From assembly GCA_003697015.1 (NCBI GenBank), contig RFGL01000066.1, positions 1-48,853 on the forward strand: 48,853 bases of DNA. Direction: 5' to 3'. Shown here one piece after another: positions 8,279 to 27,209 of the stretch. The stretch comes from Acidobacteriota bacterium. GTDB lineage: Bacteria; Acidobacteriota; Thermoanaerobaculia; Multivoradales; J023. Position 1 is the first letter of the stretch; each line of letters opens with the position of its first letter. The position numbers and the translations under genes were made by a program. The notes beneath the pieces are model-generated. The model was not told where the DNA came from and did no database searches. It saw nothing but the letters and a program-made list of their open reading frames with translations.

Positions 8279-10224
8279 GCACCCCAGACCAGCCCACCTG
8301 GCGGCGGCGCCGGCGGGCGCGCAGCACCCTCTTCGCCGCCGGCGAGCCGATGATCTGGCTCACCGGCGGTGCCCTGGCGATCTGCACGGTGATGGTGGCC
8401 GGCCTCCTGCTCCTGGTGCTGCGCCAGGGGCTGATCACCTTCTGGCCCGCCCCGGTGGTCGAGATCACGACGCCGGACGGCCGGGTCTTCATGGGCGAGA
8501 TCACCCGCCGCGAGAGCTTTCGTCCGGCGGCGGAGGTGGTCGACCGCCTGCCGCCGGCGGTGCGGGAGAAGGCCCGCGCCGAGCTGGCGGCGAGCGACGG
8601 GGTGGCGCATCGCGAGCTCGTCCGCACCGGCAACTTCCGTCTCACCCAGAGCCACTTCGCCTGGGTGTCGAGCTTCGAGGTCGAGAACCGTCGCCGGCCG
8701 CCGTGGGCCCTGGTCCTCGAACGGCTGGAGTGGGGGCGGTTCTACGGCTTCCCCCAGGCCTTCGTCGAGATGCACTTCCTGAGCGGCGAGGGCGACCCGC
8801 GGCAGGAGGCCCGGCGGCTGCTCGACCGGCTGGCCGGCCGCGGCCGCCAGCTGCGGCTGGTGGTGAGGGGCAGCGGCCGGCGGCTCGCTCTGGCCGGCGT
8901 CGAGCACCTCGACGACGCGACCGAGCTGGCGGCGGTGGCCGAGATCGACGGCGGGGCGCAGGCGGCGTGGGAGGGCTTTCGCCGCCACCACGACGCGGTG
9001 CGCCAGCGCTGGCGCCGGCGGCGGGCGTTGGAGAAACACGACGTCGGGGAGGTCAACCACGCGCTGGAGCGCGCCCGCCTCGAGCGGCGCGCGGCCGAGC
9101 TCGAGCGCGAGCGGGCGGCGGCACGCCACGGCGCGGGCTCGGCGGCCTACGAGGCGGCGCAACGGGCCTACGAGGCGGCGCAACGGGCCTATGAGGCGAA
9201 GCGCGTCGAGGCTGAGGCCGAGCTGTCGCGCATCCGCGCCGAGATCGAGCGCATCAACGGCGAGAACCGGCGCCTTCAGCTGCTGATGACGACCGCCGGG
9301 GAAGGCGCCACGCCGCCGCAGACCGTGCTCGTCCCGCTCGACCAGATCGTCCGCGCCTACCCCGCCAACCAGCTGTCGGCAGGCGGCAAGGCCGGCGTCT
9401 ACCTGGCGCGGTGGGGCGAGTTCCTGCTCGACGAGCCGCGCGAGGCCAACAGCGAGGGCGGCGTCTTCCCGGCCATCTTCGGCACCGTCACCATGACCCT
9501 GCTGATGTCCCTGGCGGTGGTGCCCTTCGGCGTCCTGGCAGCGCTCTATCTGCGCGAGTACGCCCGCGCCGGGGCGGTGATCTCGGCGGTGCGGATCGCC
9601 ATCAACAACCTCGCCGGGGTGCCGTCGATCGTCTTCGGCGTCTTCGGCCTGGGCTTCTTCTGCTACGTCGTCGGCGCCAGCCTGGACCAGCTGCTCTTCG
9701 CCGCCAGCCTGCCCAATCCGACCTACGGCAAAGGCGGCCTGCTGTGGGCGTCGCTCACCCTGGCGCTCCTCACCCTGCCGGTGGTGATCGTCGCCACCGA
9801 GGAGGCGGTGGCGGCGGTGCCGAGCTCGATGCGCGAGGGTTCCTACGCCTGCGGCGCGAGCAAATGGCAGACCATCCGCCGCATCGTCCTGCCGCGGGCC
9901 ATGCCGGGCATCATCACCGGCATGGTCCTGGCGATCGCCCGCGGCGCCGGCGAGGTGGCGCCGCTGATGCTGGTCGGGGCGGTCAAGCTCGCTCCCGAGC
10001 TGCCGATCGACGGCATCTTTCCCTACGTCCACCCGGAGCGCAGCTTCATGCACCTCGGCTTCCACATCTACGACGTCGGCTTCCAGAGCCAGAATTCCGA
10101 AGCCGCCAAGCCCATGGTCTTCACCACCACCCTGCTGTTGATCGCGATCATCGCGCTGCTCAACCTGACCACCATCTGGCTGCGCGGTCGCCTGCGCAAG
10201 CGCTACGCCGGCAGCCAGTTCTAG
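8275..10224 (+). CDS. pstA: Phosphate ABC transporter permease PstA with coiled-coil periplasmic insert
   Basis: 649 aa, roughly twice the classical PstA length. The ATG at 8275 overlaps the pstC stop (ATGA), giving translational coupling; the frame is open further upstream but that is pstC coding. A helix at about 27-50 is followed by about 340 extra residues, including a charged coiled coil (about 245-337) that contains three tandem heptads of AYEAAQR type. The permease core starts at about 392 (VFPAIFGTVTMTLLMSLAVVP), with YACGASKWQTIRRIVLPRAMPG as the ATPase-coupling loop and RGAGEVAPLML. The Arg/Glu residues known from PstA pores appear retained. The insert could interact with PstS, the PstC insert or envelope partners. 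Confidence 0.9.
   Translation: MSTPDQPTWRRRRRARSTLFAAGEPMIWLTGGALAICTVMVAGLLLLVLRQGLITFWPAPVVEITTPDGRVFMGEITRRESFRPAAEVVDRLPPAVREKARAELAASDGVAHRELVRTGNFRLTQSHFAWVSSFEVENRRRPPWALVLERLEWGRFYGFPQAFVEMHFLSGEGDPRQEARRLLDRLAGRGRQLRLVVRGSGRRLALAGVEHLDDATELAAVAEIDGGAQAAWEGFRRHHDAVRQRWRRRRALEKHDVGEVNHALERARLERRAAELERERAAARHGAGSAAYEAAQRAYEAAQRAYEAKRVEAEAELSRIRAEIERINGENRRLQLLMTTAGEGATPPQTVLVPLDQIVRAYPANQLSAGGKAGVYLARWGEFLLDEPREANSEGGVFPAIFGTVTMTLLMSLAVVPFGVLAALYLREYARAGAVISAVRIAINNLAGVPSIVFGVFGLGFFCYVVGASLDQLLFAASLPNPTYGKGGLLWASLTLALLTLPVVIVATEEAVAAVPSSMREGSYACGASKWQTIRRIVLPRAMPGIITGMVLAIARGAGEVAPLMLVGAVKLAPELPIDGIFPYVHPERSFMHLGFHIYDVGFQSQNSEAAKPMVFTTTLLLIAIIALLNLTTIWLRGRLRKRYAGSQF
9145..9195 (+). repeat. 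21-bp tandem repeat inside pstA
   Basis: Two exact 21-bp units (9145-9165, 9166-9186) plus a partial third encode consecutive AYEAAQR heptads. Length changes here would shift a coiled coil by whole heptads, which such a helix tolerates. Confidence 0.75.
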
Positions 10225-23671: not shown

Positions 23672-24229
23672 ATGGGACGCCTGCTCCATCGGCTTCAGCT
23701 GGTGCTGCTCCTGGCGCCGTTTGTGGCGGTGGGGACGGCGTTGGTCTTCGGCTTGACGCTGCCCCGGGGGCATCGCTTCGGCCGGGCGGTGACGGTGGAG
23801 GCGGCGGCGGAGCGGGCGTTTGCCCTGCTGGCGGACGTCGAGGGGTGGCCGCGCTGGTCGGCGCGGGTGCGGGCGGTGGAAGCGTTGCCGGAGCACGACG
23901 GCCGGCGGACCTGGCGCCTGAAGCTCGGGAGCGACCGGCGCGGGGCCTACCTGACCCTGGCCGACGGCACGCCGCCGCAGCGGCTGGTCTTCGAGCTCGC
24001 CGACTCGGCGGGGCCGTTCCGCGGCGTTTGGCACTTCGCCGTCGTGCCGCTGGCCGGCGGCTGCCGCGTCGAGCTGGTCGAGGAGGCGCGCTACGGCAAT
24101 CCCTTCGCCCGCTTCTTGGTCCACCTGGCGAGCGACAAGGCGCGCCTGGCGGAAGACATGCTGCGCGATCTGGCGCGGGCGCTGGGGGAGGCGTCGCCGG
24201 AGATCGAGCGGATGGAGCCGGCGCCATGA
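23672..24229 (+). CDS. Membrane-anchored SRPBCC (START-like) domain protein
   Basis: 185 aa. One membrane helix (about 5-28: LQLVLLLAPFVAVGTALVFGL) anchors an SRPBCC/polyketide-cyclase-like domain with the typical opening AVTVEAAAERAFALLADVEGWPRWS and the strand pattern WRLKLGS...LVFELADSAGPFRGVWHFAVVPLAGGCRVELVEEA. The C-terminal helix ends with FLVHLASDKARLAEDMLRDL. Such domains bind hydrophobic ligands, but none can be named. The stop overlaps the ppc ATG (ATGA), so it is co-translated with ppc. Confidence 0.82.
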   Translation: MGRLLHRLQLVLLLAPFVAVGTALVFGLTLPRGHRFGRAVTVEAAAERAFALLADVEGWPRWSARVRAVEALPEHDGRRTWRLKLGSDRRGAYLTLADGTPPQRLVFELADSAGPFRGVWHFAVVPLAGGCRVELVEEARYGNPFARFLVHLASDKARLAEDMLRDLARALGEASPEIERMEPAP

Positions 24230-26928
24230 GCCGGCGGGAGCTTCACTTCCGCCCTGAAGACGAGCCCCTGCGGGACGACGTGCGCACCCTCGGCGCGCTG
24301 GTCGGTGAGGTGCTGCGGGAGCAGGGCGGCGAGGAGCTCTTCGCCGACGTCGAGGCTGCGCGGCGGGCGGCGATCCGCCGCCGCGAAGACGAAGATCGCC
24401 CCGGCGACGAGCTGGCGGCGCTCCTCGACGGGCGGCCGGCGGCGTCGGCGGAGCTCCTGGTGCGGGCCTTCGCCACCTACTTCCGCGTCGTCAACCTGGT
24501 GGAGAAGGTGCACCGCATCCGCCGACGCCGGGACTATCTACGCCAGGGGCAGGCGCAGCCCGGCAGCCTCCTCGCCACGGTCCGCCGGCTGGCGGAGGGT
24601 GGCCTCGAGCTGCCGGCGGCGGACGCGCTCTTCGGCCGCCTGCGCCTCGAGCCGGTCTTTACCGCTCACCCCACCGAGGCGACCCGCCGCACCATCCTGC
24701 GCAAGGAGCAGCGCATCGCCCGCCGGCTGGTCGAGCGTCTCGATCCGTCGCGCACGCCGCCCGAGGAACGCGCCGCCCTGGGACGCATCCGCGCCGAGGT
24801 CACCAGCGCCTGGCAGACCGAGGAGCAGCCTTCCGCCCGGCCGACGGTGGCCGACGAGCGCGAGCACGTGCTGTTCTACCTCGTCGCCACGCTCTACCGC
24901 GTCGTGCCGTCCCTCTACGAGGCCCTCGACGACGCCTGCACCGAGGTCTACGGCGCGCCGCCCCAGCCCCTGCCGCCCCTGGTGCGCTTCGCTTCCTGGG
25001 TCGGGGGCGACATGGACGGCAACCCCAACGTCGGCGCCGCGACCATCCGCGAGACTCTCGCCCGCCAGCGCCAGCTGATCCTCGGCCGCTACCGCGAGGA
25101 GCTCAACGAACTCTACGGCCAGCTCAGCCAGTCGCCGTCGCGCATCCCGATCGCCGAGCAGGTGATGGCGCGCATCGACGGCGATCCGCAGCGCGACGAG
25201 GTGCTGGCGGCGATGCCGCCGCGCCACCGGGAGATGCCCTACCGGGTGCTCCTGACCCTGATGTACCGGCGCCTCGGCCGCACCCTGGAGGACGCCGGCG
25301 GCTACCGCTCGCCGCAGGAGCTCGCCGACGATCTCGAGCTCATCGCCACCAGCCTGGCGCACAACCGCGGTTTGAATGCCGGCCACTTCGCCGTCCGCCG
25401 CATGCAGCGCCGCCTCGCCACCTTCGGCTTCCACCTCGCCACCCTCGACGTGCGCCAGGACGCCGAGGTCCACCGCCGGGTGATCGGTCGGCTGCTCGCC
25501 GATCCCGACTGGCAGGAACGGCCGGCTGCGGAGCGCGCCGCGCGCTTGCGACGGGTGCTGCAGGAGAACGAGCCGCCCGCCGGCGGCGGCGACGGCGGGA
25601 GTCAGGCCGCCCTCGAGGTCTTCCGCGCCATCGACGAAGGCCGGAAACGCTACGGCCGCCACGCCATCGGCCCCTTCGTCATCAGCATGGCGCAAGGGGT
25701 CGACGACGTACTGTCGGTGCTGGTGCTGGCGCGCTGGGCGGGGCTGGAGGATGACGCCGGAACCGTGCCTCTCGACGTCGCGCCGCTGTTCGAGACCGTC
25801 CCCGATCTGCAGGCCGCAGGGGAGGTGATGGCGGCGCTCCTCGCCGACCCCCTCTACCGCCCCCACCTGCGCTCGCGCGGCGATCGCCAGATGGTGATGA
25901 TCGGCTATTCCGACAGCAACAAAGACGGCGGCCTGGCGTCGTCGCGCTGGGCGCTCTACCGCGGCCAGCAGGCCCTCGCCCAAGCCCTGCTGCCGGCGGG
26001 GGTCGAGCTGGTGGTCTTCCACGGCCGCGGCGGCACCGTCAGCCGCGGCGGCGGCAAGACCGAACGCGCGGTCCAGGCCATGCCTCCCGGCGCCCTCGGC
26101 GGCCGGCTGCGCCTCACCGAGCAGGGCGAGACCATCGACGCCAAGTACGGCCTGCGCGGCATCGCCCAGCGCACCCTCGAGCAGATGCTCGGCGCCGTCG
26201 CCCGAGCCACCGCCCAGCCGCTCGAGGACGAGCCGCGCGAGCCGCGTTGGCGGGGGATCATGGACCACGTCGCCGCCGCCAGCCGCCGGGCCTACCGCGA
26301 GCTGGTCTACGACGCCGAAGGCTTCTACGACTACTTCCGCCGGGCGACGCCGATCGACGTCATCGAGCGCATGGCCATCGGCTCGCGGCCGGCCTCCCGC
26401 CGCTCCCGCCGCGGCCTGGAGAACCTGCGCGCCATCCCCTGGGTCTTCGCCTGGACCCAGAATCGCCACATCCTGCCCGGCTGGTACGGCCTCGGCACCG
26501 GGCTGACGTCCGCGATCGCGCGCCACGGCCGCGACGCCGTTGCCGAGATGGCCCGCGACTGGCCCTTTCTGCGCGCTCTGCTCGACGACGCCGAAATGGT
26601 GCTGGCCAAAGCCGACCTGGGGATCGCGTCGCGCTACGCCGAACTCGCCGGCGAAGAGGGCGGGCCGATCTTCGAGCGCGTGCGGGAGGAATTCGGCCGC
26701 ACCGAGGAGGCGATCCTCGAGCTCAAGGGCAACGCGGCGCTGCTCGACGACGACGTCACGCTCCAGCGCGCCATCCGCCTGCGCAATCCCTACGTCGACC
26801 CGATGAGCTTGCTGCAGGTCGATCTGCTGCGCCGCTGGCGGGCGGCCGGGCGCGACGACGACGACCTCCTGCACGCCCTCTTCGCCACCGTCCGCGGCAT
26901 CGCCCAGGGGCTGCAGAACACCGGCTGA
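24226..26928 (+). CDS. ppc: Phosphoenolpyruvate carboxylase
   Basis: 900 aa anaplerotic enzyme making oxaloacetate from PEP and bicarbonate. The catalytic His is H148 in VFTAHPTEA. Other family blocks are SWVGGDMDGNPNV, LATLDVRQDAEVH, MIGYSDSNKDGG, the mobile loop FHGRGGTVSRGGGK, IPWVFAWTQNRHILPGWYGLGTGL and the invariant C-terminal QNTG. Length matches the bacterial type. The ATG at 24226 overlaps the upstream SRPBCC stop. A selenoprotein gene follows after 32 nt but has its own -10-like element. Confidence 0.97.
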   Translation: MSRRELHFRPEDEPLRDDVRTLGALVGEVLREQGGEELFADVEAARRAAIRRREDEDRPGDELAALLDGRPAASAELLVRAFATYFRVVNLVEKVHRIRRRRDYLRQGQAQPGSLLATVRRLAEGGLELPAADALFGRLRLEPVFTAHPTEATRRTILRKEQRIARRLVERLDPSRTPPEERAALGRIRAEVTSAWQTEEQPSARPTVADEREHVLFYLVATLYRVVPSLYEALDDACTEVYGAPPQPLPPLVRFASWVGGDMDGNPNVGAATIRETLARQRQLILGRYREELNELYGQLSQSPSRIPIAEQVMARIDGDPQRDEVLAAMPPRHREMPYRVLLTLMYRRLGRTLEDAGGYRSPQELADDLELIATSLAHNRGLNAGHFAVRRMQRRLATFGFHLATLDVRQDAEVHRRVIGRLLADPDWQERPAAERAARLRRVLQENEPPAGGGDGGSQAALEVFRAIDEGRKRYGRHAIGPFVISMAQGVDDVLSVLVLARWAGLEDDAGTVPLDVAPLFETVPDLQAAGEVMAALLADPLYRPHLRSRGDRQMVMIGYSDSNKDGGLASSRWALYRGQQALAQALLPAGVELVVFHGRGGTVSRGGGKTERAVQAMPPGALGGRLRLTEQGETIDAKYGLRGIAQRTLEQMLGAVARATAQPLEDEPREPRWRGIMDHVAAASRRAYRELVYDAEGFYDYFRRATPIDVIERMAIGSRPASRRSRRGLENLRAIPWVFAWTQNRHILPGWYGLGTGLTSAIARHGRDAVAEMARDWPFLRALLDDAEMVLAKADLGIASRYAELAGEEGGPIFERVREEFGRTEEAILELKGNAALLDDDVTLQRAIRLRNPYVDPMSLLQVDLLRRWRAAGRDDDDLLHALFATVRGIAQGLQNTG

Positions 26929-26947: not shown

Positions 26948-26953
26948 TAGAAT
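26948..26953 (+). promoter_or_regulatory. Leaderless-type -10 for the selenoprotein gene
   Basis: TAGAAT followed by exactly 7 nt and the ATG at 26961; no Shine-Dalgarno. Same geometry as at mtnA. Confidence 0.45.
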
Positions 26954-26960
26954 CGCTGCC

Positions 26961-27209
26961 ATGAAGGTAACCATCAAGCACTGCGTTTCCTGAGGCTACC
27001 GATCCCGGGCGGCGAGTCTCGCCGCCGCCATCAAACAGGCCCTCAGGGCCGACGTCACCCTCGAGCCCGGCGGCCCGGGCCAGTTCGACGTGCTGGTCGG
27101 CGAGCACCTCGTCGCCGGCCGCGCCACGGGCTTCTGGCAGCGGCTTCTGGGCGGCGGCTTCCCCGAGCCCGCCGCGGTGATCGACCGGCTGCGCCGCCAC
27201 CCGGGCTGA
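26961..27209 (+). CDS. SelW-like (Rdx family) selenoprotein with in-frame UGA
   Basis: 82 aa if the TGA at 26991-26993 is read as selenocysteine. The N-terminus [18 protein letters not shown] has the Rdx redox motif C8-x-x-U11 followed by GY, as in SelW. After the UGA the frame stays open for 71 codons and keeps the family layout: an Ala-rich helix, then [22 protein letters not shown] and a final [16 protein letters not shown]. Ordinary gene calling would give a 10-residue peptide and miss the gene. A stem-loop suitable as a bacterial SECIS lies just after the UGA. The thioredoxin-like fold implies a redox role, with unknown partner. The gene sits 32 nt after ppc. Sec machinery (selA/B/C/D) is not in the window. 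Confidence 0.85.
27008..27026 (+). promoter_or_regulatory. Candidate bacterial SECIS stem-loop
   Basis: GGCGGCG (27008-27014) pairs with CGCCGCC (27020-27026). An A-U pair can close the loop to GUC, so a G is at the start of the apical loop. The loop begins about 22-25 nt from the UGA, within the 16-37 nt and G-in-first-two-positions pattern described for bacterial SECIS elements. It lies inside the coding region, as bacterial SECIS elements do. Confidence 0.65.

Follow-up and report, generated by a model that had tools for sequence, protein, structure and literature searches.

A SelW-like selenoprotein gene with a predicted selenocysteine at an in-frame UGA in an Acidobacteriota genome, and the separate Rdx branch in which it falls

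In mammalian SelW the SECIS element lies in the 3' UTR, as established for eukaryotes; together with MIEN1 (2npb, 2ljk), this protein shares the Rdx fold and the CxxU or CxxC motif with the bacterial protein described here, but both are distant from it, at 20-25% identity. SelW-like proteins rank with the commonest selenoproteins of bacteria, and their Cys forms are rare in Sec-using bacteria (PMC1794560, PMC2398784). Such selenoproteins are already well known in bacteria, and the gene described here is a further example; less expected are its branch and the number of Rdx genes with a predicted Sec, three, in its genome. It lies in a stretch of 48,853 nucleotides from an Acidobacteriota bacterium (contig RFGL01000066.1, genome G000), which is called the window below. 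Its product resembles the bacterial SelW-like selenoproteins (PF10262, TIGR02174) in its CxxU motif, fold and length, but differs from them in falling into a separate branch, in having a GQF motif and an insert before FP, and in reading CVSUGY rather than CVVUNY. The canonical SelW of the same genome (contig C75, CVVUNY) likewise has the Rdx fold, a UGA and a hairpin in the same place with the loop GUC, but is about 35% identical to the window protein, is without the insert and has its stem arms swapped (CCGCC/GGCGG as opposed to GGCGGCG/CGCCGCC). The Cys-type Rdx proteins with a CTQC motif (L105-L111) are alike in fold and in the position of the redox motif, but are without Sec and belong to a different branch, while the solved bacterial SelW-related proteins 2obk, 2fa8, 2p0g, 3dex and 2ojl share the fold at 22-32% identity to the model.

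The gene, its UGA codon and its redox motif are as follows.

26961 to 27209, forward strand: putative SelW-like/Rdx selenoprotein gene of 82 residues with Sec as residue 11, from translation with TGA read as U.
26991 to 26993, forward strand: UGA codon predicted to be read as selenocysteine, conserved in the order and aligned with a Cys codon in the relative L117.
26982 to 26993, forward strand: CxxU redox motif, C8-V-S-U11, in which C8 and the Sec or Cys of column 11 are invariant across 18 aligned sequences.

An earlier note, made from the letters alone, had described a short frame with CVS-UGA-GY followed by 71 more sense codons in a SelW/Rdx layout. Translation of the window gives exactly these coordinates, motif and frame: 71 sense codons follow U11, including the motif LGGGFPEP, and end at a stop TGA at 27207-27209, with no further stop or frameshift in the frame 3' of the UGA. 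The Rdx layout holds as well. With Cys given at the Sec site, the protein matches the Pfam Rdx profile (PF10262) with 51 bits, against a curated cut-off of 22.6, over residues 2-78 and profile positions 1-73 of 74, and it scores 41.5 bits with TIGR02174, above the cut-off of 34.2. Homologues align over their full length beyond the UGA; an alignment that stopped at it, the outcome which the note had named as speaking against a selenoprotein, was not seen. Since 71 open codons are unremarkable in a GC-rich genome and are little evidence alone, comparative evidence was sought, and what goes beyond chance in these sequences is the homology through the UGA, the covariation of a hairpin 3' of it and the choice of codon in the loop of that hairpin.

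The standard code places a stop within the frame, as would be expected if the UGA were a true stop in a decayed Rdx pseudogene or a Cys codon wrongly assembled. Either would predict an isolated, unconserved UGA, and this is already contradicted by the relatives. Rdx matches occur in 69 of the 72 genomes of the order, and all 76 of them, from independent assemblies, contain a UGA. Across the phylum, 123 of 396 genomes match a profile of the window branch, canonical SelW included, and nearly all of these matches contain TGA; in the minority without it, those that were read carry CTQC (L105-L111). The part 3' of the UGA is also under selection as protein, and so would be translated, because the nucleotide differences from relatives favour third codon positions: from L055, with 41 of 71 residues identical, they number 20, 20 and 35 at codon positions 1, 2 and 3, and from L052, with 35 of 71 residues identical, 24, 21 and 44. 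With no additional stop or frameshift in the frame, we reject a pseudogene or an error as highly improbable.

The note had proposed to look for CxxC homologues at this locus in relatives, and one CxxC protein that belongs to the branch of the window gene was found. Locus L117, on a contig of a betaproteobacterial MAG (genome G445), encodes MQVEIRFCATCGLAGRARKLAERIRHELGIEVAVAPGHLGQFDVFADG..., in which CATC places a Cys at the Sec site with no stop, so that the in-frame UGA of the window aligns with Cys in a homologue; the two proteins are 44% identical over their full length. The genome of L117 still has selA, and the locus possibly records a change from Sec to Cys or a transfer. No other Cys form of its close branch was found among 300 genomes of its order, where the remaining matches reach at most 54 bits compared with 124 for L117, and a search of plasmids gave no relative of the Cys form.

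The UGA is followed by a predicted hairpin that lies within the coding sequence.

27008 to 27026, forward strand: putative bacterial SECIS hairpin with a stem of 7 bp (GGCGGCG/CGCCGCC), an A-U closing pair and the loop GUC, from folding, covariation and loop codon choice.

Its arms span 27008-27014 and 27020-27026 and the A-U pair joins 27015 and 27019, so that the stem has 7-8 bp and the loop 3 nt (GUC) with this pair closed or 5 nt with it open. The stem starts 17 nt past the first base of the UGA, as the earlier note had read it, and the loop-initial G that it had also seen is there when the A-U pair is closed. The UGA-to-loop spacing is about 21-22 nt, a G falls within the first two loop positions, and the 21-nt hairpin has a free energy of -14.7 kcal/mol. 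The published limits for bacterial SECIS elements are a loop of 3-9 nt, a stem of 4-16 bp, a G in the first two loop bases, a spacing of 16-37 nt and an MFE of at most -7.5 (PMC13188914), and the hairpin lies within all of them (8 bp, GUC, 22 nt, -14.7 kcal/mol). The folding energy by itself is unexceptional for this protein in a GC-rich genome, and is weak support and no proof: 296 of 3000 synonymous recodings of the UGA plus 57 nt fold at least as well, as do 218 of 5000 recodings of the 21-nt hairpin alone. When synonymous codons are drawn at window frequencies, 7.4% of the draws form seven Watson-Crick pairs, and 0.26% do so and also have GU in the loop.

More telling is the behaviour of the hairpin in 79 relatives. 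The closing G/C pair of the stem is C-G in 55 of them, G-C in 24 and broken in none, and bases 6 and 18 of the 24-nt block pair with each other in six standard forms. Among the 50 distinct sequences, 92% of cells are paired and the covariation score is 0.384, as compared with 0.143 for shuffled and at most 0.130 for slid versions, where the slid versions keep the relatedness among the sequences and the shuffles do not remove it. Much of the switching between stem arms is synonymous, because the protein motif [RK]AA[SG]LA is identical on both stem versions, and selection on the RNA is, from the sequences compared, the best explanation of the switching. The loop itself has its G in 79/79 relatives and GU directly after a closing A-U or G-U pair in 72/79. 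The codon that makes it is AGT wherever the residue is Ser (41/41) and GGT wherever it is Gly (30/30), while three large window genes use AGT for 3.5% of their Ser codons and GGT for 6.7% of their Gly codons. Seven loci (L053, L070, L081, L086, L088, L104 and L113) have Arg in place of Ser or Gly, encoded by AGG, with the loop GGU or GGC; in these the loop G is kept and the adjacent U is not.

The note had held that the genome must carry selA, selB, selC and selD, and that their absence would speak against Sec. All four are found in the assembly around the window, which comprises 5.3 Mb at 96% completeness and 0% contamination.

Contig C330: tRNA-Sec (selC) with anticodon TCA (UCA), found by Rfam (73.9 bits) and ARAGORN.
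Contig C4: SelB, full length, 343 bits.
Contig C120: SelA, 481 bits.
Contig C412, locus L019: SelD, 371 bits, with an in-frame TGA of its own in the motif TCGU.

The selD gene of this genome would, by the in-frame TGA within TCGU, itself be a selenoprotein gene. A reading of the UGA as another amino acid, such as Trp, or its non-specific read-through, accounts for a frame that is open once UGA is taken as sense, and for nothing beyond that; the full Sec set, the use of UGA as an ordinary stop at the end both of the Rdx gene itself (27207) and of the ppc gene upstream of it, the alignment of the site with Cys in L117 and L105-L111, and the conserved SECIS hairpin that follows all point elsewhere, and we reject it as even less credible than a pseudogene. 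Insertion of Sec at the UGA, as the earlier note had proposed, is by comparison strongly supported by the sequences, where the gene and its family, the complete machinery, homology through the UGA and a conserved SECIS hairpin were all identified.

The window gene is one of three predicted Rdx selenoprotein genes in its genome, beside those on contigs C75 (CVVUNY) and C125 (CQTUATT). The last was absent from the Pfam genome search, which listed two Rdx genes, and was found by an alignment of the branch; scanned alone, it scores 25.5 bits, above the cut-off.

Contig C125 of genome G000, 9531 to 9779, reverse strand: third putative Rdx selenoprotein gene (locus L104, branch B', CQTUATT), with hairpin GGCAGCG/CGCTGCC.
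27129 to 27149, forward strand: insert of 7 residues in the window protein, about GFWQRLL with alignment-dependent edges, absent from canonical SelW and marking the branch.

In a tree of 87 sequences the window gene did not group with canonical SelW (CVVUNY) but fell into a set of 21 rows, B + B', with support of 100/92; support is 91/89 for B alone, made up of the window gene, L052-L055 and L117 as the Cys form, and 93/90 for B'. These values come from 77 alignment columns with a bootstrap not fully settled, which makes the finer forks uncertain; the branch leading to L117 is long. GQF and, ahead of an FP, WP or YP motif, an insert of 7-8 residues are common to the members of B + B', with the pattern C[VT]SUG...LGGG[FW]P in B and C[DPQA]TU...GQF...WP or GAGYP in B'. 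On these sequence grounds the window gene is a member of a distinct branch of the Rdx family, one that is nearly all-Sec, and is not the canonical SelW of the organism, which is the gene on C75. The chances seem to us evenly balanced that B and B' form an undescribed Rdx subfamily, almost wholly Sec-based and present across Acidobacteriota beside canonical SelW, and so with a different redox job. A description of the branch was not found in the literature searched, and as this was limited to open-licence papers, it is weak evidence of novelty.

The neighbours of the gene give no functional hint, since the relatives examined do not share its gene order: no flanking gene is common to the window and the other branch loci examined, among which only those of G033 and G034 share flanks. 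Downstream lies a gene for a hybrid histidine kinase, and upstream are two features.

24226 to 26928, forward strand: phosphoenolpyruvate carboxylase (ppc; Pfam PF00311, 883 bits), ending 32 nt upstream of the gene and not part of the system.
26948 to 26953, forward strand: TAGAAT, 7 nt upstream of the ATG, a candidate -10 promoter element found by eye.

In a search of plasmid DNA with the window, ppc was the sole match. As a -10 element TAGAAT would imply an almost leaderless mRNA, and it is a candidate only; at L053, L056 and L057 as well, a TAnnnT hexamer 6-7 nt upstream of the start codon hints at a nearly leaderless transcript.

An AlphaFold2 model of the product (mean pLDDT 89) has a beta-alpha-beta-beta-beta-alpha domain, with C8-V-S-U11 following the first strand (residues 2-7) and preceding a helix (14-28), while the region of the insert is less certain, at a pLDDT of about 70. 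The best solved matches found with Foldseek are the SelW-related 2ojl, 2fa8, 2obk, 3dex and 2p0g, together with MIEN1, at query TM-scores of 0.71-0.77 overall and 0.72-0.77 for the SelW-related hits, and a sequence profile search agrees with them; the model thus predicts the thioredoxin-like fold of SelW. We are close to certain that the gene makes an 82-residue Rdx selenoprotein with this fold, with Sec inserted at residue 11 under the direction of SelB and the hairpin. SelB with Sec-tRNA(UCA) would bind the mRNA hairpin 3' of the UGA, the ribosome would insert selenocysteine at residue 11, and the second UGA (27207) would be read as a stop and end the frame. The product would fold as a small thioredoxin-like domain with CxxU in the loop after strand 1, where C8 and U11 most likely form a reversible selenenylsulfide as the protein reduces or senses a partner, either a thiol or a peroxide. 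This thiol/selenol role is inferred from what is known of the family. A specialised role in place of general thiol redox, such as selenium or metal binding or the docking of a partner, would fit the separate position of B/B' (100/92), its coexistence with canonical SelW in one genome and the 7-8 extra residues that precede the C-terminal helix. We consider it rather unlikely, as neither redox position varies: the Sec members all have CxxU and the Cys member has CxxC, which is what redox use predicts.

The window gene thus adds a new, well-supported selenoprotein gene in Acidobacteriota, in an order where every Rdx copy found contains a UGA. The set of 79 hairpins offers a clean case of RNA structure dictating codons inside a conserved protein motif. 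The presence of three predicted Rdx selenoprotein genes from two branches in one genome suggests that Sec was retained when the family split, and direct comparison of these paralogues could help to show the role of bacterial SelW-like proteins.
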